Shown here: piece after piece, positions 821-27,946 of the stretch
Layout of the letters: every line of letters starts with the position of its first letter
Numbering within the stretch: position 1 is the stretch's first letter
Source of the DNA: a virus
Direction: 5' to 3' (one strand)
Length of the DNA: 32,779 nt
IMG/VR virus record: IMGVR_UViG_3300049893_000374
Coordinates: 1 to 32,779 of that record
Program-made: the position numbers and the translations under genes
The notes under the pieces: model-generated
The model's input: only the letters and a program-made list of their open reading frames with translations
Databases searched by the model: none
What the model was told of the DNA's origin: nothing

Positions 821-3800
821 ATGGCAGACATTACTCTCTCAACTACCGAAAGTAACATTGTAGTTGATGCAAGCAATAACATTATTCAAGTTAGCAGCAC
901 ACCCACAACAATTGTTGTTGGTGAAGGATCAACAGTAGATAATGCACAAATTCGCGCTGCATTAAGCAATGTTGCACCTATTCTTTATGATGCTGGAACC
1001 GGTGTATTCAGTTTTGATGCAAATGCTACATTCAGCGGCAAGACCACAGATGATTTAGCAGAAGGCAATGTAAACTTATACTTTACTAATGCTAGATCTA
1101 GAGATGCAATTAGCACTTTAAATCAAGGTGTTGGTTATGGAACTTTAAGTTATAGCAATACAACTGGTGTAATAACTTATAACGTAGTTACAAATGCTAA
1201 TATTAGAGGTGCAATAAGTTATGCTGCTGGTAGTGCTGGTTACAACAGTTCAACTGGTGTAATTTCAATTCCAGCAACAACCACAAACCTTTCTGAAGGC
1301 ACAAACCTATACTTTACCGCTGCAAGAGCACGCGGCAATGTAAGTGCAACAGATGCAGGCGGCTTAGGTTCATTTTCCTATAATAATACCACAGGTGTGT
1401 TTACATATACAGGTCCTAGCGACAGCGATGTAAGAAGTTTAATTAGTGCTGCAAACACCACAACTGGTTATGGTAATATTACCTACAGCAGTTCAACAGG
1501 ACAAATTGTATTTGATCGTGTTACTAATTCACATATAAGAGGTGCAATTAGTATAACCGACACAGGTGGTGATGGTAGTTTAACTTATAACAATGGCACT
1601 GGCGTAATTACTTACACTGGACCAGATCAAACCGAAGCAAATACTAGAATTGCTGCTGCACCAAGTCAAGTTCGCGCACATCTAAGTGCTACAAATACTG
1701 GAACAGGATTTGGCGGTATTGCGTATGACAACTCAACTGGTGTAACAACTTATACACGAGTATCAAACGCAGACATTGCTAGTTCAATACTAAACAACAC
1801 CATTAAATTAAAAAATTACAGCGAAACTGCTGTTGATTATGGTAATGTTGCTGGTAATATTACTGTTGATCTAGGCCTAGGATCTATACATGAATATACA
1901 TTAGTAGGTAATGTAACATTTATTTCATTTGCAAATGCTGTTGCTGGAAGTAGTGCAACATTAATCTTTAAACAAGATGCTGTGGGTGGTCGTCAACTTG
2001 ATACTACTACACACACTTGGACAGGTTGGAAATTTGCTGGTAACAGTAAAACATTAACACTTGCTGCAAACAGCAAAGATGTAATGACAGTTATTATACC
2101 CGACACTGGAGACTATTATTCAAGTATTGTAAGTATGGAAGGAATGTTTATTCCTAACAGTCAACTTGCAAACAGCAACGTAATTGTAAATGGTGTCACA
2201 ATTGCACTAGGTTCTAGTGGTAACATAGATACATTTAACAGTAATGTTACAGTTAATGGTAACCTAAATGTTGCCGGTAATTTAAATTACCAAAACGTTA
2301 CTGACTTGTATGTAACTGATCAAAAGATTACACTAAACAGTAATGCTGCAACCAATGCCAATGTAGAAATTATTTCAAATCGTCCTACTGCAACTAATAC
2401 AATGTTGAAGTGGAACGAGCCTGCTACACGTTGGGAGTTTACCAATGATGGTAGCACATATTATCCTATTGCTACTAGCACATCAGATTTAGTAGAAGGC
2501 ACAAACCTATACTTTACCGCTGCAAGAGCACGCGGTAATATCAGTGCTGCTGAAAACATTACCTACAACAGTAGCACAGGTGTAATTGGATTAGCAAATA
2601 GCCTAGCCAATGTCAGCACCATTACTGCACAATCAGGTCAAAATCTTACACTTAATACTGCTAGTGGTTTAATTACAAAACAAAAATATAACAATGTTGA
2701 TGTATTCAGCGGCAATATCAGCAGTGATGGTTATGCATTGTTTAGTTCAAACGCATATGATGGTAGTTTAAATTACTTCAATTACACCGGCAATGCTAAT
2801 ATTGAAAACTTTATTGTTAATACCGGTAACACAACTGCTGGCTCAAACGCTATCACCAATGTTTCATTGTTAAATTATTTTGCTGATACAGCACAAAGCC
2901 TAAGCAGTTTACCTGTTGGCTTTTTCTTTAGCCGAGACGAGTTTGACTACTTGCCATTCCCAGTAGGCACTAGAGTAAGCAGCGTAGATAGTGCAAACAG
3001 TATTGTTTACATGAGTGCTAATGCAACAACCTCAACTGATCTAGGATTCCAGGGCGGTGTAGCACCAAATGGTGTATTTGGATTTAACTCTGCACTATAT
3101 GATAGCAATACTGGTTTAACTATTATTTTAATCAGTGATTATGATACGGGTGGCGCTGACAAAACCGTATTGGTCGCAACAAGTCCATATCCATCAAGCC
3201 GCTATGGTTATCCTGCAACAGGTCCTGCTATTACAGACTTTGACATTGTAACTGCTGGCACAATCAATGATTACAGTCTAGGCACAGAAAGCCTAGCACA
3301 GTTCATGATTGGCAGAAATAAATTAAGTTCACCAAAGAGTGTGCTACAAGCACCACGTGGTTTAATTGTTGGTGAAGGTGCTGACTTAACTAACCGCGCT
3401 GAAAATGACATGCTACCAAGTTTTGGTCTTAACGTTCTATGGGATGGCCAAAGCAACATTGATGATTATGGTGGCAATACCCCATTAACACAATTATTAA
3501 TTAAGAACTATACTGATAATAACCTTCAAGGTCAAGCCTTAAGAACTACATTTGGTCCTAGATTGTTCTTTACCGCAGCAGAAGGCAATTCAAGTCAACC
3601 TATCAGCGTAACATATCCTAAGAAAAACTTAGAACTAGGACGTATCAGTTGGTGGAGCACAAGTTCCACACAGGCTGGTTTAAGCACTGGTGGTCCTCCC
3701 GCTTGGATCAGCGGTGTAACTGGTCAAGACTGTGTAAGCACTAACAGTGGCTTAGGCATGTATTTTGGTATCAGTCCAAATACTGCAAACTTCAATAGAA

Positions 3801-5038
3801 GTTTGTATATGGCCAGCAGTTTGGGTAATACACTTATTGCAAGTGCTCAAGACAGCACTGGCACACATCGCCCAATTATCTTTGCACCATCACACTATGG
3901 TAGCAGTCAAGGTAACAGCGCATTACTGTATAATCAAACTATACTTGGTAATGAAACTATCACTGATACAATTCAAACCAGTGGCACACATTTTGCACAG
4001 ATCAACTATAACAATGCTACATCACTAACAGGTAGTAAAGTTGCTGTTACTAACGGTAATAACACAAACTCCACACGTGAAGGTAACATTGTTCTCAGCA
4101 TTGATAGAAACTATAACAGTGGTAATGCCAACGTTCGTGTAAGAACTGGTGGAACAAACTTCTATGGTGCTAATAACCCAGATCGCGTAAGATTTACATT
4201 TGCACCACAGGGCCTAGTAGATGGCACAGCAGTTACAATTAGAAACTTTGTTGCTGGTGCTGCTACCGGTTTGAATAATAATGTTTACTATGTAAAACGT
4301 AATGACAGTGGTGGTTACATTGGTTTTGACCTATACTATGACAGTGGTTTAACCAGTGGCGTAAACATTGGCACAACTAACCAAAGTGCTGGAGCCGGCA
4401 CATTTGAATACACTAGAAACAACGGTGTAACTGCTAAAGATTGGGCGTTTACATTACCACAAGGCAGTAACAACTTAATCCTCACAGAAGATGGTGTCAA
4501 CACAACAACATTTGAAAGTGGTGGTAACGTTAATGTTACAGGCAACATCAACCTAACTGGACGCTTGTTAGGCTATGACCGTGTATATGGTGAATTCTGC
4601 TATACCGCTGGTAACATTGTGCCAGCCGCAGCAGATACAGTCTATACATTCCCATTTGATACAACCAACATGGCCAGTGATGTAGTTGCTAACAACACTT
4701 CACGCATTAACATTGTTAAACCAGGTATCTTTAAACTCATAATGAGTTTGCAGGTTAAGAACAGCAATAACAGCGCAGATCATATCATGCGTTTCTGGTT
4801 GCGTAAAAATGGTGCGGATGTTGCTAACAGCGCAACATTGGTAACACCTCTTAAACTGCAAGAATCAGTGATTTCAATGGATTGGATGGTAGAAAGTGAT
4901 GGTGATGACTATTGGGAAATTGCTTATTATGTGAATAGCACAAACATATCATTCCCCAACTACACCAGTATTAGTAGTCCGGTAACTGCACCATCATGTC
5001 CGCCAATCATTGTTAACGTAATTCCAGTAGGAGCATAA
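821..5038 (+). CDS. long repetitive tail fibre with C1q-like tip
   Basis: A 1405-residue fibre, the largest gene here, with SD AAGGAG before ATG. Residues about 1-330 and 560-590 carry degenerate repeats of the type EGTNLYFTAARARGNVSA and SYNNTTGVFTYTG, a module common in cyanophage and marine-phage fibres. Residues about 340-440 (VDLGLGSIHEYTLVGNVTFI onward) form a frequent phage beta domain. From about 1250 the tip (YGEFCYTAGNIVPAAADTVY ... INIVKPGIFKLIMSLQVKN) resembles C1q/TNF-like jelly-roll receptor-binding domains. The expected role is host recognition by a trimeric fibre at the tail end. Family-level assignment is good; the receptor is unknown. Confidence 0.85.
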   Translation: MADITLSTTESNIVVDASNNIIQVSSTPTTIVVGEGSTVDNAQIRAALSNVAPILYDAGTGVFSFDANATFSGKTTDDLAEGNVNLYFTNARSRDAISTLNQGVGYGTLSYSNTTGVITYNVVTNANIRGAISYAAGSAGYNSSTGVISIPATTTNLSEGTNLYFTAARARGNVSATDAGGLGSFSYNNTTGVFTYTGPSDSDVRSLISAANTTTGYGNITYSSSTGQIVFDRVTNSHIRGAISITDTGGDGSLTYNNGTGVITYTGPDQTEANTRIAAAPSQVRAHLSATNTGTGFGGIAYDNSTGVTTYTRVSNADIASSILNNTIKLKNYSETAVDYGNVAGNITVDLGLGSIHEYTLVGNVTFISFANAVAGSSATLIFKQDAVGGRQLDTTTHTWTGWKFAGNSKTLTLAANSKDVMTVIIPDTGDYYSSIVSMEGMFIPNSQLANSNVIVNGVTIALGSSGNIDTFNSNVTVNGNLNVAGNLNYQNVTDLYVTDQKITLNSNAATNANVEIISNRPTATNTMLKWNEPATRWEFTNDGSTYYPIATSTSDLVEGTNLYFTAARARGNISAAENITYNSSTGVIGLANSLANVSTITAQSGQNLTLNTASGLITKQKYNNVDVFSGNISSDGYALFSSNAYDGSLNYFNYTGNANIENFIVNTGNTTAGSNAITNVSLLNYFADTAQSLSSLPVGFFFSRDEFDYLPFPVGTRVSSVDSANSIVYMSANATTSTDLGFQGGVAPNGVFGFNSALYDSNTGLTIILISDYDTGGADKTVLVATSPYPSSRYGYPATGPAITDFDIVTAGTINDYSLGTESLAQFMIGRNKLSSPKSVLQAPRGLIVGEGADLTNRAENDMLPSFGLNVLWDGQSNIDDYGGNTPLTQLLIKNYTDNNLQGQALRTTFGPRLFFTAAEGNSSQPISVTYPKKNLELGRISWWSTSSTQAGLSTGGPPAWISGVTGQDCVSTNSGLGMYFGISPNTANFNRSLYMASSLGNTLIASAQDSTGTHRPIIFAPSHYGSSQGNSALLYNQTILGNETITDTIQTSGTHFAQINYNNATSLTGSKVAVTNGNNTNSTREGNIVLSIDRNYNSGNANVRVRTGGTNFYGANNPDRVRFTFAPQGLVDGTAVTIRNFVAGAATGLNNNVYYVKRNDSGGYIGFDLYYDSGLTSGVNIGTTNQSAGAGTFEYTRNNGVTAKDWAFTLPQGSNNLILTEDGVNTTTFESGGNVNVTGNINLTGRLLGYDRVYGEFCYTAGNIVPAAADTVYTFPFDTTNMASDVVANNTSRINIVKPGIFKLIMSLQVKNSNNSADHIMRFWLRKNGADVANSATLVTPLKLQESVISMDWMVESDGDDYWEIAYYVNSTNISFPNYTSISSPVTAPSCPPIIVNVIPVGA
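1295..1335 (+). repeat. 41-bp exact direct repeat, copy 1 (within fibre gene)
   Basis: It encodes the repeat module EGTNLYFTAARARG and is identical base for base to 2495-2535, exactly 1200 bp downstream. Neighbouring modules differ in codons, so identity here points to recent duplication or gene conversion. Confidence 0.85.
2495..2535 (+). repeat. 41-bp exact direct repeat, copy 2 (within fibre gene)
   Basis: Second copy of the 1295-1335 repeat, in the same reading frame, 400 codons later. Recombination between the two would delete exactly 400 residues of fibre in frame. Confidence 0.85.
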
Positions 5039-5972: not shown

Positions 5973-6015
5973 GTTGTTTTAAAACAACACAATTTTGTTG
6001 CATAAATGCAACACT

Positions 6016-6044
6016 AAAAAAGCCCCGTTTGGGGCTATTTTTTT
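6016..6044 (+). terminator. strong rho-independent terminator closing the late operon
   Basis: Stem AGCCCC/GGGGCT with a GTTT tetraloop, preceded by an A-run and followed by T after T (ATTTTTTT). It lies after the last fibre-side gene and immediately before a consensus promoter, so it separates late from early transcription. Confidence 0.9.
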
Positions 6045-6049
6045 AATGG

Positions 6050-6077
6050 TTGACATAAATAACTATTGTGTTATAAT
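6050..6077 (+). promoter_or_regulatory. consensus sigma70 promoter
   Basis: TTGACA (6050-6055), 16-base spacer, TATAAT (6072-6077); both boxes are perfect matches. The expected transcript begins near 6084 and puts the AUG at 6097 behind GGAGA. This rules out any start further upstream for the HTH gene and marks an early, host-polymerase-driven unit. Confidence 0.85.
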
Positions 6078-6096
6078 ACAACAATGGAGAATACAA

Positions 6097-6615
6097 ATGG
6101 CAAAAAAACCATATCCTTATATACCAACGGCTCCGCGCTCAAACACCAAGTTTGAACGCAAATGGGGCATAAGTGCAATTGACTTAGCCAAAGAAGAAGG
6201 TGTTACAGCATCGGCTATTCAGATGCGTATTATGAATTATGGTAATCCTTTTCAACGTAAAAAAGCACCTACAATGTGTGAAGTAATGACTGGCAAAACT
6301 TCAATTGAAATAGCCAAAGAGTTAAACATATCACCAGTCACAGTATATGAACGTTTGAAGAATCATGGTGATGCATACTATGAAAGTGAACACGGTGCTG
6401 GCGTAGCATTACGTGGCAGACAACGTGCAGCATATCACTGGACTGAAACCAAACAAGCCGGCACAAAGCCAGGTTGTAAAAATGGTTGGCTAAGTCCACG
6501 ACACGAGGACTATCACACATGGCGTTTTAAAATGATACAACAATATTGTCCTACAGCACATGATTATAACACTAAGGAGGCTAATAATGAATGTGAGAAC
6601 ACTGATAGTATTTGA
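6097..6615 (+). CDS. tandem helix-turn-helix DNA-binding protein, probable early regulator
   Basis: 172 residues. The start is fixed by the promoter at 6050-6077 and by GGAGA at 6086-6090. Two HTH-like units follow each other: residues about 25-53 (ISAIDLAKEEGVTASAIQMR, then NYGNPF) and about 65-95 (SIEIAKELNISPVTVYERLK, then NHGDAY). Both end in a matching N-[YH]-G-[ND] turn, suggesting an internal duplication. The C-terminal part has Trp/His/Cys residues without an obvious motif. The HTH pair resembles the sequence-reading units of phage regulators and of homing-endonuclease accessory domains. As the first gene after a perfect promoter it is a good candidate for a transcriptional regulator; its targets are unknown. 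Confidence 0.7.
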   Translation: MAKKPYPYIPTAPRSNTKFERKWGISAIDLAKEEGVTASAIQMRIMNYGNPFQRKKAPTMCEVMTGKTSIEIAKELNISPVTVYERLKNHGDAYYESEHGAGVALRGRQRAAYHWTETKQAGTKPGCKNGWLSPRHEDYHTWRFKMIQQYCPTAHDYNTKEANNECENTDSI

Positions 6616-9909: not shown

Positions 9910-10194
9910 ATGAGCATGACCGAATTACAAATTCTAGCACAAAAAAAATATAACAAAATTGTCATGGGCAATGGCAGTGATTTGCGTAACCTAAAACTTT
10001 TTAACGTTAGAGCAATATTAGACAAAGCCAACCTTACTGAAGATGATGTGCTATTGCTGCAACAATTTGTTGATGCATCTCGAGAACAAATTGATAAAAC
10101 TGCATATGTTGCTAATGCCGCAGTATATCCAACCAGTTGGAATCATAAAACTGTTCGTTTAACTGTTAAAACAACAAAAAATAACGAGTTTTAA
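9910..10194 (+). CDS. unknown small protein (94 aa)
   Basis: The frame of 94 residues begins just after a terminator T-run. ATG 9910 and ATG 9916 both lack a Shine-Dalgarno sequence, so the start is uncertain and leaderless translation is conceivable. The product is mainly helical (ILDKANLTEDDVLLLQQFVD) with a basic Thr/Lys C terminus. It has no cysteines, membrane segments or recognised domain. It sits alone between a terminator and the promoter of the ParB-glycosyltransferase gene, so how it is transcribed is unclear; readthrough of the terminator is possible. Confidence 0.5.
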   Translation: MSMTELQILAQKKYNKIVMGNGSDLRNLKLFNVRAILDKANLTEDDVLLLQQFVDASREQIDKTAYVANAAVYPTSWNHKTVRLTVKTTKNNEF

Positions 10195-10241: not shown

Positions 10242-10254
10242 CATTGGAGATGAG

Positions 10255-12093
10255 ATGCAGATTGAACACCTTCCCTTGCACAAAATTACCCCATATGTGC
10301 GTAATCCTAGAAAAAATGATCCAGCAGTAGATGCAGTAGCAGAAAGCATCAGTAGATATGGATTTCAACAGCCAATTGTAGTAGACGCTGATCACGTGAT
10401 TGTGGTAGGCCACACACGCTACAAAGCAGCACGCAAACTAGGACTAACCACTGTGCCTGTGCTAGTAGCAAAGGATCTTGATAAAGATGCTGCGGCTGCA
10501 TACAGACTAGCAGACAACCGAACCAATCAATATGCCAAGTGGGATGACAGCCTACTAGCAGAAGAATTTCGACATTTATATGAAAATGTAAACAGTATCA
10601 GTGAACTCAGCGCAATGAGTGCATTCACTGAACTTGAAATTGATAGATTGTTGAATGGCAAGAATTATGGTGTTGATCCCAATGAACTAGCAAAAAATGC
10701 AGACAGAGTCTGCAACAAACGCATTGCACTACTAACACCTAAGAACAGTTATGTTAACAGAGGTGTAGCCACATACATCAATGGTTGGATTGAATGGGGC
10801 TTGCGTAATGGTGTGCAAGTAGATGTAATCAGCGATGACAACGAATTAAACAATAACCAGTTTGAACGCTACACACGTGTAAGCCAATGGGTTAGTCCAC
10901 CACAGCCAGTAAACATACCCAGCAAACTGCATGATGACAATTATATAGCAATGCGTAGTCCAGTGGTAAGACTACAAGACAGCGTTAACATTAGAACAGC
11001 ATTGTTACATGCCATGACACAGTATCATTATGATGCTATAATTTGCAATACCATTGAAACGCTGTTCACAGTAGTAAGCATGGGCTTGCACACCGAACAT
11101 CCTAACATTTACTATGCAACACACAGTTGGGTAGATGTTAACATGGGACAAAGCAACTATCAATATGATCTAACACGCAGCATCATTGCAAACAGCAATA
11201 TCAAACTATTGGTGCAAAGCGAATGGATGCGTGAACATGTGTTAAAAGGATATGGTGTCAGTGAAGATAGAATTACTGTTGCTGTGCCCATGTTAGGACA
11301 GCCAGAGTTTGTGGATAAAATTGACGCAGACTTTGAGGATCGCCGCGGAATACTATACATTGGACCTTTTGAAGATAGAAAAAATCCACAAGTGTATATT
11401 CAAGCACTAAAAAACAGTGGCTTGCCAGCATTGGTAATCACACCCAGTCAAACCAGTGCAGATAAATTTAAAAGAGAATTTTTAAAGTATAACATTGAAC
11501 ATGAGATTCATGTGGCATTAACAGGTTCAGCCAAAGTAGATGTAATGAGTCGTGCAGCACTGGCAATTATTCCCAGCAAGGACGAAACATTCTGCTACAC
11601 AGCATTTGAAGCAGCACATATTTGTAGAACAATTGTGCCTTCAAACAGAGGTTGGACCACAGCACATGATGCTTGGTGTATTAGAGTAGAAGAAGATCAA
11701 ATACCTTATGCTGTTGCAGATCATTACAATAAACCCAATGAAGAATCTGCTAAAGCAGCACTTAAACAACAATTTGCACACAGCGATAAACAAGGTTTAA
11801 AATTGATAGCAGCGCAAAGTGTAGAACCCCGAGGCAATAATGCTTTTACAAAATGGATGGAGCAAAAAGGTAAAACTACACTAAGAGACTTTTTTAACAG
11901 CAGACCTTCAAAAGTATTAGATGAAGTGTTTTATGTTGTTAGAGCACAACACAATACAGAATATGTATTTGAACACACACAAAATGATACAGTGGTAACA
12001 CAAGAAGGATATGTGCCCACTGCAGATATTACACAAGATGATATAAATGATAATTTAGCAAGAGAATTTGGATTGGAGACCATTAATGGCTAG
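10255..12093 (+). CDS. ParB-like nuclease domain fused to GT4 glycosyltransferase
   Basis: 612 residues in two parts. Residues 1-135 are a ParB/Srx-like domain: NPRKN (17-21), the GHTRYKAAR box (52-60) and ADNRTNQYAKWD (86-97). This is the version usually found at the front of phage DNA-methyltransferase fusions next to terminase. From about 155 a GT-B fold starts (RIALLTPKNSYVNRGVATY) and continues to about 500. It has an ILYIGPFEDRKNP acceptor-to-donor transition near 365 and a perfect EX7E donor-site motif, E444-TFCYTAF-E452. A nucleotide-sugar donor is expected from the GT4 fold. The acceptor is unknown: phage DNA bases, by analogy with ParB-methyltransferases, or a virion or host glycan. 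The gene overlaps terS by 8 bases, tying it to packaging. Confidence 0.85.
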   Translation: MQIEHLPLHKITPYVRNPRKNDPAVDAVAESISRYGFQQPIVVDADHVIVVGHTRYKAARKLGLTTVPVLVAKDLDKDAAAAYRLADNRTNQYAKWDDSLLAEEFRHLYENVNSISELSAMSAFTELEIDRLLNGKNYGVDPNELAKNADRVCNKRIALLTPKNSYVNRGVATYINGWIEWGLRNGVQVDVISDDNELNNNQFERYTRVSQWVSPPQPVNIPSKLHDDNYIAMRSPVVRLQDSVNIRTALLHAMTQYHYDAIICNTIETLFTVVSMGLHTEHPNIYYATHSWVDVNMGQSNYQYDLTRSIIANSNIKLLVQSEWMREHVLKGYGVSEDRITVAVPMLGQPEFVDKIDADFEDRRGILYIGPFEDRKNPQVYIQALKNSGLPALVITPSQTSADKFKREFLKYNIEHEIHVALTGSAKVDVMSRAALAIIPSKDETFCYTAFEAAHICRTIVPSNRGWTTAHDAWCIRVEEDQIPYAVADHYNKPNEESAKAALKQQFAHSDKQGLKLIAAQSVEPRGNNAFTKWMEQKGKTTLRDFFNSRPSKVLDEVFYVVRAQHNTEYVFEHTQNDTVVTQEGYVPTADITQDDINDNLAREFGLETING

Positions 12094-12481
12094 TCGTAAA
12101 CAACCCAAGATGGGAACCAAAACAGTTACTGGAGTAGTTGTGGGTAGAGAAAAAACTGTAATAGATCCAAATGAAATATATAAATTAGCACAACTAGGCT
12201 GCACCATTGAAGAAATGAGTGATTGGTTTGGTGTGCCACGTGAAACAATAAAATACAATTTTAGTGATTTTATTGCAAAAGGCCGCAGTGAAACTAAACA
12301 AGCACTAAGGCGTGCCCAAATTGCGTTAGCCCTTAAGGGCAATGCAGTAATGTTGATTTGGCTTGGTAAGAACATGCTGGGTCAAAGTGACAATCCATTA
12401 GAAACAGACAGCAGTCAAGTTTTACCATGGGTTGAATCAGAATTAACCAGAGAAGAAAATGAAGATAAACCAGTTGCGTAA
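12086..12481 (+). CDS. terS: terminase small subunit
   Basis: 131 residues from ATG 12086 (GGAG at 12075-12078); an upstream TTG in frame lacks a ribosome binding site. Residues about 28-65 contain an HTH (IYKLAQLGCTIEEMSDWFGV, PRETIKYNF). The following RRAQIALALKGNAVMLIWLG, then KNMLGQSDNP, is the classic small-terminase pattern. The protein recognises the packaging site on concatemeric DNA and hands it to TerL. It overlaps the ParB-glycosyltransferase gene. Unusually, terL does not follow directly: a structured stretch and a membrane-protein gene intervene. Confidence 0.85.
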   Translation: MASRKQPKMGTKTVTGVVVGREKTVIDPNEIYKLAQLGCTIEEMSDWFGVPRETIKYNFSDFIAKGRSETKQALRRAQIALALKGNAVMLIWLGKNMLGQSDNPLETDSSQVLPWVESELTREENEDKPVA

Positions 12482-12586: not shown

Positions 12587-12805
12587 ATGAAGTTACCAAA
12601 TACAGATATTTTTACACGTGAAGAAAGCAGCCACAACAGCGTGGGCTTAAACACTTTTGGCTTGTTAAGTGTAAGCCTACTATGGGGTCACATGCTGAGT
12701 CTAGTCAGTTGGTGGTGGTTGCCCGTTACAGTTATCCTAGCATTAGTAGGATATGGCACAGAAATTAGCAAACGCAAAGAGCCAGTTAACATCAAGTTTA
12801 AGTAA
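12587..12805 (+). CDS. two-helix membrane protein between terS and terL
   Basis: 72 residues with GGAGA nine bases before ATG. After a polar N terminus (1-20), residues about 21-42 (LNTFGLLSVSLLWGHMLSLV) and 44-60 (WWWLPVTVILALVGYGTEI) are hydrophobic. The C terminus is basic (SKRKEP). The size and two closely spaced transmembrane segments fit a class II holin or a superinfection/membrane protein, but the position between terminase genes is unusual for either. It overlaps the terL start (TAATG), so it is translated together with terminase. Confidence 0.65.
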   Translation: MKLPNTDIFTREESSHNSVGLNTFGLLSVSLLWGHMLSLVSWWWLPVTVILALVGYGTEISKRKEPVNIKFK

Positions 12806-14040
12806 TGCGTCTTACGGTGCCACAACAAACTATAAGTGCAAGCACAGCACGTTTCCGTTGCGTTAGTGCCGGCCGCCGTTTTGGCAAAAGTTTTCTTTCA
12901 ATTAATGAAATGGCTAAGTTTGCACGTCATCCTAAACAACGTGTAATGTATCTAGCAGTTACCCACCGTCAAGCAAAAACAGTGATATGGGAAGATTTGA
13001 AAACACAATTGATTGAACGCAATTGGGTAAAAAAAATTAATGAAAGTGAAATGCAGATATGGTTAGTTAATGGTTCAACTATAACTGTGCGTAGTGCTGA
13101 AACCAAAGACGCATTACGTGGTGGCAAGTATGACTTTATAGTGTTAGACGAAGTTGCAGACATGGACAAAGATGTTTGGTTCAGCATACTGCGTCCTACA
13201 CTAAGTGATAGACGAGGACATGCGCTGTTCATTGGCACACCCAAAGGTATGGGCAATTGGTTCTTTGATTTATGGAACAATGCTAAAACACAAACAGATT
13301 GGGCCAGTTGGCAATATACTACCATTGAAGGTGGTAATGTTCCACCAGAAGAAATTGAAGCAGCACGTCGAGACCTAGATGCTAAAACATTTGAACAAGA
13401 ATATGAAGCACAATTTGTAACATTTAGTGGACGTTGCTTTTACGCATACACTGAGGATAATTTAAAAGATCATCCAGGTATTAAAGAAGGCGAACCAGTC
13501 CATATTGGTTGCGATTTTAATACTTCACCAATCACAGCAGCATGTGCAACACGCACAGAAAAAGGACTGCACTTTTTTGATGAAATAGTCATTTATGGTT
13601 CAAACACCAATGAACTAGCAGAAGAAATACGCCGACGCTTTGGTTTTGGAAGAACAATTTTTGTTTATCCAGACAGCAGCGGTGGACGCAAGCAAACTAG
13701 TAGCGGCGGTTACAGCGATCACATTATTTTAAACAATGCCGGTTTCAAAGTAGTTGTAGATAGTATCAATCCTCCAGTTACAGAAAGTATTGCTAGCGTA
13801 AATAGTTTGCTGTGCAGCACTACTGGTGATAGACGTCTACTTATTGATAAAAACTGTAGACAAATACGCGAAAGTATGTTAAAGTATGTGTATAAGGAAG
13901 GAACACGTGTTCCCGACAAAGATTCAGGTTTTGATCACATGGCTGACTGCATACGTTATATAACACATAAACTATATCCAGTTAGACCAGTTGTATCTAA
14001 CAGTGGTAAGAGTTACAGACATACTGGTAAAATGTTATGA
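12805..14040 (+). CDS. terL: terminase large subunit
   Basis: 411 residues, the packaging motor ATPase and nuclease. The ATPase part shows Walker A SAGRRFGKS (residues 21-29), Walker B FIVLDE (111-116) and the coupling motif FIGTPKG (142-148). The RNase-H-like nuclease shows acidic residues in HIGCDFN (D237), VYPDSSG (D290) and DSGFDHMAD (D377, D381), giving a complete active site. The length is normal for a compact TerL. The start overlaps the upstream stop, and the stop overlaps the next gene (ATGA), so the packaging genes are tightly coupled. The packaging mode (cos or headful) cannot be told from the sequence. Confidence 0.95.
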   Translation: MRLTVPQQTISASTARFRCVSAGRRFGKSFLSINEMAKFARHPKQRVMYLAVTHRQAKTVIWEDLKTQLIERNWVKKINESEMQIWLVNGSTITVRSAETKDALRGGKYDFIVLDEVADMDKDVWFSILRPTLSDRRGHALFIGTPKGMGNWFFDLWNNAKTQTDWASWQYTTIEGGNVPPEEIEAARRDLDAKTFEQEYEAQFVTFSGRCFYAYTEDNLKDHPGIKEGEPVHIGCDFNTSPITAACATRTEKGLHFFDEIVIYGSNTNELAEEIRRRFGFGRTIFVYPDSSGGRKQTSSGGYSDHIILNNAGFKVVVDSINPPVTESIASVNSLLCSTTGDRRLLIDKNCRQIRESMLKYVYKEGTRVPDKDSGFDHMADCIRYITHKLYPVRPVVSNSGKSYRHTGKML

Positions 14041-14279
14041 GAAAACAAATTAAGATTTGGGTAATGATTGCAGATCCAGAAGGTGAAACACGCACAGTCC
14101 CTTTCACTGCACCCACCATTGAGAAGTGCATGTCATATCTACACAGTTATCTAGACACTTATACAAGCCCAGGCACAAGAGCAGAAGTTGTGCAATCAGG
14201 ATATATCTATACAGGAGCAAGTCATGGCGTTCAAAGGAAGAGTTCCAGAAAAAGGAACAACACAGTGGAAGCGGAATGA
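14037..14279 (+). CDS. unknown small protein (80 aa)
   Basis: An ATGA overlap with terL. The first 60 residues (MRKQIKIWVMIADPEGETRT, VPFTAPTIEKCMSYLHSYLD) look like a small beta-alpha-beta fold. The last 20 are basic and are shared in another frame with the start of the next gene (56-base overlap). No family is recognised. Coupling to terL suggests late or packaging expression. Confidence 0.6.
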   Translation: MRKQIKIWVMIADPEGETRTVPFTAPTIEKCMSYLHSYLDTYTSPGTRAEVVQSGYIYTGASHGVQRKSSRKRNNTVEAE

Positions 14280-14445
14280 ACGTGAGATAGCACGTAACCC
14301 AGTGTTACGACGAGCACGTGATATTTCAGAAGGATTTAGCGGTAACAGCACCAGCACCACAGGCAGCAGAGTAGGTGGCGCTAGTGAAGCCTACAAAGAT
14401 GGTTGGGACCGCATATTTGGTTCTAAAAAGGACAGCAATGAGTAA
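14224..14445 (+). CDS. small protein with C-terminal W-D-[RK]-I-F motif
   Basis: 73 residues from ATG 14224 with AGGAG at 14212-14216. The N terminus is basic (KGRVPEKGTTQWKRNEREIA) and the middle is low-complexity Ser/Thr/Gly. The C terminus EAYKDGWDRIFGSKKD matches the end of the next protein (FEDNWDKIFAPKEKK). The NWDRIFG ending is shared by many small phage proteins of unknown role. The two neighbours look like diverged paralogues. It overlaps genes on both sides. Confidence 0.6.
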   Translation: MAFKGRVPEKGTTQWKRNEREIARNPVLRRARDISEGFSGNSTSTTGSRVGGASEAYKDGWDRIFGSKKDSNE

Positions 14446-14596
14446 ATGGCATGGGGGCAAAGGCAGTAAGCCACGTCCCATTGAAGATCGCCGACAGTTT
14501 GAAGATAACTGGGACAAGATATTTGCCCCTAAGGAAAAGAAAAATGCAAAAGATAGTGATAGCAAAGTTCACACACCGCAACCCAAAGACAGGTAA
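14438..14596 (+). CDS. small conserved phage protein, SKGSKPRP...NWDRIF type
   Basis: 52 residues, ATG 14438 with AAGGA upstream, overlapping the preceding gene by 8 bases. MSKWHGGKGSKPRPIEDRRQ, then FEDNWDKIFAPK, is the recognisable pattern of a short protein common in tailed phages of several hosts. Its function is not established to my knowledge. The tail after residue 40 is charged and overlaps the next gene by 53 bases in another frame. Confidence 0.7.
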   Translation: MSKWHGGKGSKPRPIEDRRQFEDNWDKIFAPKEKKNAKDSDSKVHTPQPKDR

Positions 14597-14789
14597 AGAG
14601 TTTACGGTCCAAAAAGGTTGGCCCTGTAAAGATAAACAGGATGCTGAACATATTGTTAAGTATTATGGTATGAAGACGGGCGCATTAGAAGCCCAATGTG
14701 TTATGGAGGAAGTAAGCGATGAAGAAATCAAACAAGCAGCGTCAAGCACTACTGCAAAAGAAAAGAACCAAGCGCAACCAAAGTCGTAA
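14544..14789 (+). CDS. unknown small protein (81 aa)
   Basis: ATG 14544 is preceded by AAGGA. Residues 1-45 (MQKIVIAKFTHRNPKTGKEF, TVQKGWPCKDKQDAEHIVKY) look like a compact fold of strand, loop and helix. Residues 55-81 are acidic and then low-complexity. No known family. It overlaps both neighbours by 53 and 71 bases in other frames, an unusually dense arrangement. Confidence 0.6.
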   Translation: MQKIVIAKFTHRNPKTGKEFTVQKGWPCKDKQDAEHIVKYYGMKTGALEAQCVMEEVSDEEIKQAASSTTAKEKNQAQPKS

Positions 14790-14898
14790 AGGTGTTAAGT
14801 ATGATCCCGCAAAGTTGGAGCGTAGGGCACAGGCGCTTGTATCGGAAAGCCAGGCACCAATTAATAACAGAAATGGCGAGACAACACTTGTGCTTTGA
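14719..14898 (+). CDS. unknown basic protein (59 aa), nested overlap
   Basis: One of the best ribosome binding sites in this cluster (GGAGGA, 8 bases from ATG 14719) opens a 59-residue frame. It starts MKKSNKQRQALLQKKRTKRN and goes on to a helical PAKLERRAQALVSESQ. The N-terminal third is extremely basic, suggesting nucleic-acid contact. It overlaps the preceding gene by 71 and the following one by up to 98 bases, each in another frame. The strong SD argues for real translation. Confidence 0.5.
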   Translation: MKKSNKQRQALLQKKRTKRNQSRKGVKYDPAKLERRAQALVSESQAPINNRNGETTLVL

Positions 14899-15106
14899 TA
14901 ACGAAAACAATTGGGTGGATGGTGACAGGCCCGGAGACATCAAAGCCTACTGGGCTACACTTTCAGAAACCGAACGTGCATTTGAACGATTGCAAAACAC
15001 GGATGCGGCTTTGTATATGGCATTTTATGAAAAAATGCAACGCAGTATGCCAGAAGGCGTTAGTTTAACCCAAACGTCACCTATTGAGGTTAAACTCAAT
15101 AAATAA
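14801..15106 (+). CDS. unknown small protein (up to 101 aa)
   Basis: The frame is open from 14801 (ATG, weak AGGTG upstream); an internal ATG at 14873 would give 77 residues without a ribosome binding site, so the start is uncertain. The reliable part is the C-terminal 70 residues, IKAYWATLSETERAFERLQN, TDAALYMAFYEKMQRSM, a helical segment. No family is recognised. The first 98 bases overlap the 59-aa gene in another frame, which favours a later start. Confidence 0.55.
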   Translation: MIPQSWSVGHRRLYRKARHQLITEMARQHLCFDNENNWVDGDRPGDIKAYWATLSETERAFERLQNTDAALYMAFYEKMQRSMPEGVSLTQTSPIEVKLNK

Positions 15107-15335: not shown

Positions 15336-15629
15336 TTAGTAAATTGTGCCTAGCACAAAGCGTGCTTCATTAAAGTAATGATCTGCTACGCTCTTAACTG
15401 TAAGTCGCGCACTCTTAGCAGCACTAGCAATACCATCTGGATGCATGTTGCTAACATAGTGATGTAGCAGAATAATCAACTTCTGCTTGTCTGTGCCGCC
15501 TAACTCGCCTGTGTCACCTAGCACACCCTTCCAGTGCGCTACAGCATCAGCAAAGTCATTGTTGTGTGTCTGCAACGTAGTAACAATTAAGTAATCACGT
15601 AGCCGTTGCTGTAAAGTAGAACGCTTCAT
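15336..15629 (-). CDS. only minus-strand gene, unknown protein (97 aa)
   Basis: On the minus strand GGAGGTGTAT precedes ATG at 15629, giving 97 residues, MKRSTLQQRLRDYLIVTTLQ ... ADHYFNEARFVLGTIY. The protein is helical and mildly basic. A segment near 65-95 (GIASAAKSARLTVKSVADHY) could be a helix-turn-helix but is not convincing. It is transcribed divergently from the early genes at 15927 by a promoter that mirrors theirs. A repressor or antagonist of the opposite unit is therefore a reasonable guess, but only from position. Confidence 0.65.
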   Translation of the reverse strand: MKRSTLQQRLRDYLIVTTLQTHNNDFADAVAHWKGVLGDTGELGGTDKQKLIILLHHYVSNMHPDGIASAAKSARLTVKSVADHYFNEARFVLGTIY

Positions 15630-15679
15630 ATACACCTCCAAGTAGTGTGTAACAAGCACTATTGCCTGCTACATTTACT

Positions 15680-15707
15680 ACTATACACGAAACTGCCCAA
15701 AGAGCAA
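15680..15707 (-). promoter_or_regulatory. minus-strand promoter (TTGCTC / TATAGT)
   Basis: Read on the minus strand: TTGCTC (15707-15702), 16-base spacer, TATAGT (15685-15680). Boxes and spacing are identical to the plus-strand promoter at 15856-15883, and both lie on the arms of a 14-bp inverted repeat. Confidence 0.65.
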
Positions 15708-15782
15708 GAACTTTTTTACATTTTTTTCGTTGTTTTTTCACTACAAATTTGTTGCTAAAATACAACAAAAAAGTTAGGCAGC

Positions 15783-15803
15783 GTAAGTCGTTGATTTATA
15801 TAG
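15783..15803 (+). repeat. 21-bp direct repeat, copy 1 (control region)
   Basis: Identical to 15823-15843 at a 40-bp interval (about four helical turns). It begins GTAAGTCG and ends TATATAG. Operator or replication iteron are both possible. Confidence 0.8.
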
Positions 15804-15822
15804 GCTTTTTTCTGCAGGTGCT

Positions 15823-15843
15823 GTAAGTCGTTGATTTATATAG
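15823..15843 (+). repeat. 21-bp direct repeat, copy 2 (control region)
   Basis: Exact second copy of 15783-15803, ending 12 bases before the -35 box of the plus-strand promoter, a typical operator position. Confidence 0.8.
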
Positions 15844-15855
15844 AAAAAATAGTTC

Positions 15856-15883
15856 TTGCTCTTTCTGTAAAAGAGCGTATAGT
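15856..15883 (+). promoter_or_regulatory. plus-strand promoter (TTGCTC / TATAGT)
   Basis: TTGCTC (15856-15861), 16-base spacer, TATAGT (15878-15883), then the leader hairpin at 15891-15905. It drives the gene at 15927. Confidence 0.65.
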
Positions 15884-15920
15884 TATAAATGTAGCGTGTT
15901 GCTACAGACACTTTGGAGAA
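15884..15920 (+). promoter_or_regulatory. leader cassette copy A (5' hairpin plus RBS)
   Basis: The leader contains TATAAATGTAGC, the hairpin GTAGC-GTGTT-GCTAC (15891-15905) and ACAGACACTTTGGAGAA. It is nearly identical to 16258-16292 and 16538-16573. The hairpin would be at the very 5' end of the mRNA and the GGAG supplies the ribosome binding site. Confidence 0.8.
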
Positions 15921-15926
15921 TGTAAT

Positions 15927-16220
15927 ATGTTTAATGTTAATGAAATTGACACTACTGGCGCTGACACTATTCCTAGCGTAGGCGTTTGCATTGCTATGCA
16001 GTTGAATGACAACGAGCAATTTGACGAAATGTTTACAAATGCAAAAAACGCTGACAAGTTGTGCGTTTTGGACATTTATAGGGACGGCGTAAAAATTGAT
16101 GTGCTTACTGTAAGTTTGAGCGATTTTGCTAAAACTTTTATTAAGTTTGGGCCTAACGATGCTAAAGCATACAAGTGGCTTAAGAAGCGTGTGCAAAAGC
16201 GCACAAGTTTAGCACATTAA
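15927..16220 (+). CDS. unknown small early protein (97 aa)
   Basis: The start at ATG 15927 is fixed by the promoter and by the GGAG of leader A. 97 residues: an acidic first half (MFNVNEIDTTGADTIPSVGV, then CIAMQLNDNEQFDEMF), then strands (CVLDIYRDGVKIDVLTVSLS) and a basic C terminus (WLKKRVQKRTS). No family is recognised. It is the first of a series of short genes each behind a similar leader, typical of phage early genes that act on the host, but no specific function can be given. Confidence 0.65.
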   Translation: MFNVNEIDTTGADTIPSVGVCIAMQLNDNEQFDEMFTNAKNADKLCVLDIYRDGVKIDVLTVSLSDFAKTFIKFGPNDAKAYKWLKKRVQKRTSLAH

Positions 16221-26811: not shown

Positions 26812-27488
26812 GCACAGCAATAACACAAGTAGAAGATACAAACTATCTGCAACATGCGCTGTTTGTTATTCTAACACTGGATGATACAACCTATTACTTA
26901 ACCAGTAATAGACGTCCAATTGCATTTGGACCTATTACGTTCAATGCGTTGGGTTGGTTGCTACAGATCAGTGAAATACAAGATGACTTAAAAACCAACA
27001 ACGGTGATTTAAATCTAGCACTAAGTGGCATTCCAGAAGGATTGGTTGACACAGTATTAACAGCACCTATCAAAGGCGGCGAAGTAGTTGTGTTTAGAGG
27101 TTTGCAAAAAGGCGGTGATTTACAATTGTATCAACGTTACACTGGTATTATCACTAACTTTGCAATTGAAGAACAAGATGATTACTTGTCACGTGATAGA
27201 AATTATACTGTTACAATTACTTGTGCTAACATTAACACACTAATGGAAAACCGTGTAAGTGGACAGCGAACCAACGGCAGTGACCGTAAGAGATTCTATC
27301 CCGGTGATATCAGTTTTGACCGTTGTAAAGATTTACAAAACGTAAACTTTGACTTTGGTAAGAAATATACCGGTGGTAATGGTTATGGTGGTGCATACAG
27401 CCCAGGTGGCCCAGGTTACTATCCAGGCTTCCCAGGAGGCGGCGGTGGCCGCTTTGGTGAATTTGATTATAATATGCAGGAAAGATAA
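26808..27488 (+). CDS. tail hub protein, DUF2163-like
   Basis: 226 residues. LDDTTYYLTSNRRPIAFGPI, TFNALGWLLQISEIQDD and LNLALSGIPE are the N-terminal pattern of DUF2163-type tail proteins. VSGQRTNGSDRKRFYPGDIS, FDRCKDLQNVNFDFG matches the conserved GxRTNxxDxxxFxPGDxSFD core. The last 40 residues are Gly/Tyr/Pro-rich and flexible. In other siphophages the protein is part of the baseplate or tip hub. Overlaps on both sides (ATGA, TAATG). Confidence 0.75.
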   Translation: MSTAITQVEDTNYLQHALFVILTLDDTTYYLTSNRRPIAFGPITFNALGWLLQISEIQDDLKTNNGDLNLALSGIPEGLVDTVLTAPIKGGEVVVFRGLQKGGDLQLYQRYTGIITNFAIEEQDDYLSRDRNYTVTITCANINTLMENRVSGQRTNGSDRKRFYPGDISFDRCKDLQNVNFDFGKKYTGGNGYGGAYSPGGPGYYPGFPGGGGGRFGEFDYNMQER

Positions 27489-27946
27489 TGATTAGACGTG
27501 CAGGTGTGGATGATATTGATAGAATCATGGAGTTGTTGGAAAACTTTGCCAATGCTGCTCCAGTAGAATTTTATCATAATCCTAGATATAACACTCAACA
27601 TGTGGTGCGCCAACTAGGCGAAATACACAAGGCAGGTGTTATACTAGTAGGTGAAGTAGATGGTGTGATAGAAGGCATGATCATTGCTAAGACATGCAGT
27701 GATCCATGGTTGCCTCACATTAAGATCATGCGTGAGATGGCTTGGTGGGTTGAACCCAAGCACCGCATGGGCAGTTTAGGTTATAGACTACTAAAAGAAT
27801 ATCAAAGTATTTGTAAAGAGTTAGTAAAGAAAAGAAAAATTACAGCGTTTACAATTACAACATTAACAGAGTCGCCAATTAATGACATGAGTCGTTGGGG
27901 TTGGCGTCCAATAGAACAAAATTATATGTATGAGGAGGTAGCATAA
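27488..27946 (+). CDS. GNAT-fold acetyltransferase-like protein in tail operon
   Basis: 152 residues. A GNAT N terminus (MIRRAGVDDIDRIMELLENF), a central strand pair (VILVGEVDGVIEGMIIAK) and motif A, WWVEPKHRMGSLGYRLLKEY, with the acetyl-CoA pyrophosphate loop RxxGxxG. GNAT proteins in this place occur in many phages and may act as tip components or modify virion or host proteins. Overlaps with both neighbours (TAATG each) show co-translation with tail-tip genes. Catalytic activity is not certain. Confidence 0.75.
   Translation: MIRRAGVDDIDRIMELLENFANAAPVEFYHNPRYNTQHVVRQLGEIHKAGVILVGEVDGVIEGMIIAKTCSDPWLPHIKIMREMAWWVEPKHRMGSLGYRLLKEYQSICKELVKKRKITAFTITTLTESPINDMSRWGWRPIEQNYMYEEVA

Follow-up and report, generated by a model that had tools for sequence, protein, structure and literature searches.

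A ParB-GT4 glycosyltransferase fusion encoded beside phage terminase genes, with phage DNA as its probable acceptor

What does a phage glycosylate with an enzyme that is fused to a ParB-like domain and encoded directly beside its terminase genes? We analyzed the gene that raises this question in a viral sequence of 32,779 nucleotides (IMG/VR record IMGVR_UViG_3300049893_000374; hereafter the window). The ORF at 10255..12093 (+), preceded by a GGAG ribosome-binding site at 10246..10249 (+) ahead of its ATG, encodes a single protein of 612 residues, and the coordinates and length given in a preliminary description were exact. The phage-type ParB_N domain (10255..10671, +) matched Pfam PF02195 over residues 2-87 with an E-value of 1.2e-9 and 38.6 bits, above the curated cut-off of 26.3, which makes the protein a member of the ParB_N superfamily. 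It also matched phrog_620, a phage ParB family, over residues 1-139 (E 2e-43). The domain contains a GHTR motif (10408-10419, +) and an ADN motif (10510-10518, +); of 87 related ParB proteins, 70 had GHTR and 84 had DN-x. The glycosyltransferase (GT), identified by Pfam, alignments, a structural model and structure comparison, has a predicted GT-B fold and occupies residues 153-523 (10711..11823, +). Glycos_transf_1 matched residues 360-464 (E 2.4e-8; 34.2 bits, cut-off 26.4), and the N-terminal GT half matched Glyco_transf_4 over residues 170-342 slightly under the curated cut-off (E 5.9e-6). The catalytic residues H290 (11122-11124, +), K376 (11380-11382, +), E444 (11584-11586, +) and E452 (11608-11610, +) were invariant across an 18-sequence GT alignment and in 3 out of 3 fusions, so the EX7E motif (E444/E452) is intact, as had been proposed. 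The predicted GT-B fold, the EX7E motif and a donor-binding K/R would together place this half of the protein in GT4.

The AlphaFold2 model of the fusion protein had a pLDDT of 84 and a pTM of 0.70. Its GT-B domain was compared with the PDB and, in the best 50 matches listed, the neighbors were sugar, lipid, thiol and pterin GTs, including BshA, WlaC, TarM and tetrahydrobiopterin glucosyltransferase. Since Z-scores were tied at 25-27 across these varied enzymes, the fold comparison does not reveal the acceptor. No DNA glycosyltransferase was among the best 50 fold matches listed, which leaves room for such a relation. The remaining C-terminal module (11824..12090, +) is common to the stand-alone relatives of the GT and is suggestive of a winged helix. 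When the C-terminal 92 residues were folded alone (pLDDT 75, pTM 0.56), the order of elements was that of a winged helix, and nearly all the neighbors listed were winged-helix proteins (best Z 7.4; Foldseek E 0.06 or worse). These predictions give a hint that the module may be a second DNA-binding module. The GT domain is not basic and ParB-methyltransferases are likewise acidic; net charge was thus uninformative as an indicator of DNA binding and was discarded.

A profile search of IMG/VR for the two-domain architecture identified two further full-length fusions, one of 610 aa with 54% identity (L120:4001-5833) and one of 607 aa with 52% identity (L121:542-2365), each followed directly by terS and then terL as in the window. 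The occurrence of full-length fusions on two independent contigs from other metagenomes argues against chance and rules out an assembly chimaera. Two scans with ParB profiles and one with a GT-only profile found no fusions beyond these two, and a P0001-only search likewise gave no additional fusion. The 50,697 deposited phage records included none with a match spanning 80% of the fusion protein. Because close or near-identical records may be missed, the fusions number at least three. HCTV-2 gene 11, a candidate whose match extended beyond ParB, turned out to be a ParB-methyltransferase. In bacterial genomes the sole match was a 5'-truncated GT relative on a contig of Sphingobium sp. AS12 (L199:1-1098), which is followed after 1.8 kb by a small terminase gene of the Sf6 type (2911-3480); no fusion was found in 385 genomes of the same class.

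The terminase genes lie immediately downstream of the fusion gene. The small subunit gene terS (12086..12481, +) matched phrog_309 weakly and is conserved before terL in relatives, and its likely start, chosen by the ribosome site, is ATG 12086 with its own GGAG at 12075-12078. With this start, terS shares 8 bases with the end of the fusion gene (ATGGCTAG), in line with the overlap noted earlier. The large subunit gene terL (12805..14040, +) matched Pfam Terminase_6N (E 5.8e-16) and phrog_2. TerL of this 32.8-kb genome was 41-44% identical to its counterparts in DSL-LC06 and Pelagibacter siphophages and 49-76% identical to those of metagenomic phages. On the left, the slot is bordered by a conserved small gene (9910..10194, +), which in five of the nearest metagenomic relatives (L088, L089, L091, L092 and L096) is directly followed by terS; the fusion gene is therefore absent there. 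That absence from the closest TerL relatives indicates that the gene is dispensable and would fit a fusion that is inactive or decaying. We consider this highly unlikely, since all catalytic residues are kept in three diverged full-length copies of ~53% identity.

Several other features of the window were noted. The small-gene block after terL (window 14037-15106) is inverted in L089:8683-10774 (-), L091:4174-5846 (-) and L096:9692-10963 (-), and in L089 and L091 a regulator-like gene (window 5995-6615) has been relocated into the inverted block. A 1405-aa protein encoded at 821-5038, without a Pfam or PHROG match and possibly a receptor-binding protein, has C-terminal 200 residues that are ~75% identical in L089 and L096, the remainder being less conserved. 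A GNAT-type acetyltransferase gene (27488-27946) lies within the tail module, and in DSL-LC06 an N-acetyltransferase is annotated at the corresponding position.

We then surveyed what else occupies the slot before terS. In L097 it holds a 439-aa CcrM-like ParB-methyltransferase that overlaps terS. Counted over non-identical ParB proteins, there were 47 ParB-methyltransferase fusions with a terminase gene ≤1.3 kb downstream, 17 cases of a short ParB gene followed by a TAGT gene (usually with a few-base overlap) and then terS, and the ParB-GT4 fusions before terminase (two plus that of the window). Across the five ParB+TAGT loci scanned, E-values for TAGT (PF20691) ran from 5e-46 to 3e-15, and this profile had no match in the window or the other fusion contigs. 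In the Streptococcus prophage Javan291 the order is a ParB-like gene, a TAGT homologue, a small gene and terminase. Examples of this two-gene parallel to the fusion are L145:2799-3677, L161:2421-3143, L160:1270-2157 and Javan291 15397-16158. In L183:1113-2405 and L187:4001-5293, a ParB-methyltransferase fusion whose methyltransferase motifs are in an unusual order lies ~420 bases before terS. In a tree of 79 ParB domains, built on a short alignment that left many forks unresolved, the three GT4 fusions formed one clade (SH-aLRT 98) nested with 23 methyltransferase fusions (95). A fixed slot that holds a methyltransferase, a TAGT or a GT4 enzyme, together with the ParB tree, indicates that the effector has been exchanged in place. 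The TAGT neighbors in the slot also support the reading of the slot as one for DNA glycosylation.

The same evidence bears on two other acceptors. The GT could modify a host surface glycan or lipid, for superinfection exclusion or a receptor change, with ParB as a passive or regulatory leftover of a methyltransferase fusion. Consistent with this, the fold neighbors among the best 50 listed are mostly GT4 enzymes of such a kind, DSL-LC06, a distant relative of the phage group, has several surface-type GTs elsewhere in its genome, and cyanophage GT clusters have been assigned to surface glycans (PMC7824862). However, ParB is retained with conserved motifs, all three fusions precede terS, and TAGT enzymes and methyltransferases share the slot; we therefore regard a surface acceptor as unlikely. 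The GT could also modify RNA, such as queuosine-like tRNA bases, or a protein, for instance a component of the terminase or the capsid. Animals have a GT4-type tRNA-queuosine mannosyltransferase, and coupling of the gene to packaging genes would suit a protein target. On the other hand, the ParB partners in the slot are DNA methyltransferases and Pfam revealed no RNA-binding domain in the fusion protein, which makes an RNA or protein acceptor very improbable.

If DNA is the acceptor, the base that receives the sugar has to be accounted for. The preliminary description had reported no hydroxymethylase or other hypermodification gene, and our searches of the window likewise found no member of the thymidylate-synthase/hydroxymethylase, C5-methylase, TGT/DpdA-like, TAGT or que-type families. 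PF00303, the dCMP hydroxymethylase family, had no window match while its positive controls were detected. Thymidylate-synthase/hydroxymethylase-type and C5-methylase families were also absent from the two other fusion contigs, which are partial, as were TGT/DpdA-like genes, the contigs being possibly incomplete. A search with PF12851 (TET/JBP) gave no match, but its positive control was equally silent. In the ParB+TAGT contigs searched, hydroxymethylase and C5-methylase families were likewise absent. Since the window lacks an end repeat, its completeness as a genome is not proven. With no acceptor-making gene found, the acceptor would be a host-made base, an ordinary base or group, or the product of an unrecognized pathway.

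A further clue came from the proteins most closely related to the GT half. These are stand-alone phage proteins of ~450 aa, from Synechococcus phage BUCT-ZZ01 and 80 IMG/VR loci, that fall into several clusters at 70% identity. Among these loci, queE was present in 76, mostly upstream of the GT, queD in 54 and folE in 42. A family typified by L002:7286-8536 has a TGT-like HADSGG motif, and its match to Pfam TGT is weak (one member reached E 0.0046). The representative in Xanthomonas phage X1 lies beside QueE and GTP cyclohydrolase and is annotated as queuine tRNA-ribosyltransferase; on these grounds we named the family DpdA-like. Thirty loci carry the DpdA-like gene, and in 28 of them its start lies directly at the stop of the GT gene. 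In phage X1 itself a GT relative lies ~39 kb from the DpdA-like gene, which lends some independent support to the linkage between the GT and 7-deazaguanine. For several large records that contain both the GT and queE we found no DpdA-like gene, and no que gene was found near the GT in a 465-kb record (L015). In L002:3173-8536, L064:2442-7624 and L017, the GT gene overlaps folE and/or the DpdA-like gene, and genes for a GalE-like epimerase and another GT are often nearby, so that glycosylated 7-deazaguanine DNA is possible in these viruses. The stand-alone relatives thus point to 7-deazaguanine bases as a candidate acceptor context, with the qualification that most of the linked loci come from related large, cyanophage-like viruses and that the linked relatives are 20-27% identical to the fusion.

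The position of folE, queD and queE next to stand-alone relatives could also mean that the GT has a small molecule or nucleotide in free form, rather than polymer DNA, as its substrate, for example a 7-deazaguanine or pterin precursor. In keeping with such a substrate, the structural neighbors with tied scores include cyanobacterial tetrahydrobiopterin glucosyltransferases. Yet those ties do not discriminate, the precursor genes were not found in the window, and fusion to ParB and a position at terminase would hardly make sense for a soluble substrate. We hold this explanation to be rather improbable.

Taken with these observations, DNA is the most likely acceptor (a probability of roughly 60% by our estimate), and the fusion protein would be a modification enzyme of the ParB-TLS locus; the genome context favors glycosylation of the phage's own DNA. 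We propose that the GT-B domain, by putative retaining GT4 chemistry, would move a sugar from a host nucleotide-sugar to a base in phage DNA. The ParB domain, perhaps aided by the winged-helix-like module, would bring the enzyme to DNA late in infection, a timing suggested by the overlap of the fusion gene with terS and its probable co-translation with packaging genes. The sugar may then shield the phage DNA from host restriction. The main options for the acceptor would be a modified base made by the host and a normal one, attacked for example at an exocyclic amine like that used by the N6/N4 methyltransferases that the GT replaces.

PMC6536676 describes the ParB-TLS locus, reported by Iyer et al. 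2013, in which a methyltransferase and other DNA-modifying genes lie between the genes for ParB and the large terminase subunit, and cites a proposal in which DNA modification is directed by ParB during packaging. ParBc is often fused to DNA methyltransferases in a role that is unknown (PMC12783734). By its position and its ParB domain the fusion locus appears to be of the ParB-TLS type, with the GT as its presumed DNA-modifying gene. The earlier proposal of a new DNA-modification system thus stands in part: the locus type had been described, and the ParB pairing and the occurrence of GTs in the slot are either known or recurrent, but the fused GT-B effector appears to be new. No ParB-GT4 fusion was found in the literature searched, in which Iyer et al. 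2013 was represented by the paper citing it. The related claim, that a DNA-modifying GT replaces the methyltransferase of a ParB fusion, is supported by the sharing of one slot by ParB-methyltransferase, ParB+TAGT and ParB-GT4 and by the GT relatives in 7-deazaguanine clusters, its functional part being drawn from context.

Comparison with known systems defines what is particular to the fusion. The ParB-N6/N4 methyltransferase fusions (phrog_498) have the same ParB domain (~50-55% identity) and also lie upstream of and overlap terS, whereas the effector in the window is a GT-B glycosyltransferase. The ParB+TAGT pairs (L145, L161 and Javan291) similarly place ParB beside a GT ahead of terS, and the contigs searched yielded no gene for making a hydroxymethyl group, but they consist of two overlapping genes and TAGT is a different GT family. 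In T6-like phages, TAGT likely adds a second glucose to glucosylated hydroxymethylcytosine (PMC13390438). The stand-alone GT4-like enzymes (BUCT-ZZ01 UTS52035.1 and L008-L087) are homologous across the GT and the C-terminal module; unlike the fusion, they are without ParB and occur in large phages with 7-deazaguanine genes. The T4 alpha- and beta-glucosyltransferases share the proposed type of reaction, a sugar placed onto phage DNA, but they act on hydroxymethylcytosine, no sequence match between them and the fusion was found, and no hydroxymethylcytosine pathway was found here.

To our knowledge, phage DNA glycosylation depends on dedicated acceptor pathways. Phages of the 30-kb class seemingly carry the GT alone, which would imply host-made acceptors or a new direct chemistry. 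It is a tentative possibility that the fusion is a single-polypeptide, ParB-guided DNA glycosyltransferase that places sugar directly on an ordinary or host-modified base without a hydroxyl handle made by the phage, with parallel ParB+TAGT versions in many small phages; if true, DNA glycosylation of this form would have no known counterpart in T4-type systems. The fused GT joins the swappable enzymes of the ParB-TLS locus, where ParB has repeatedly been paired with unrelated GTs, and the linkage of a phage GT family to 7-deazaguanine clusters suggests that glycosylated deazaguanines may exist in DNA.
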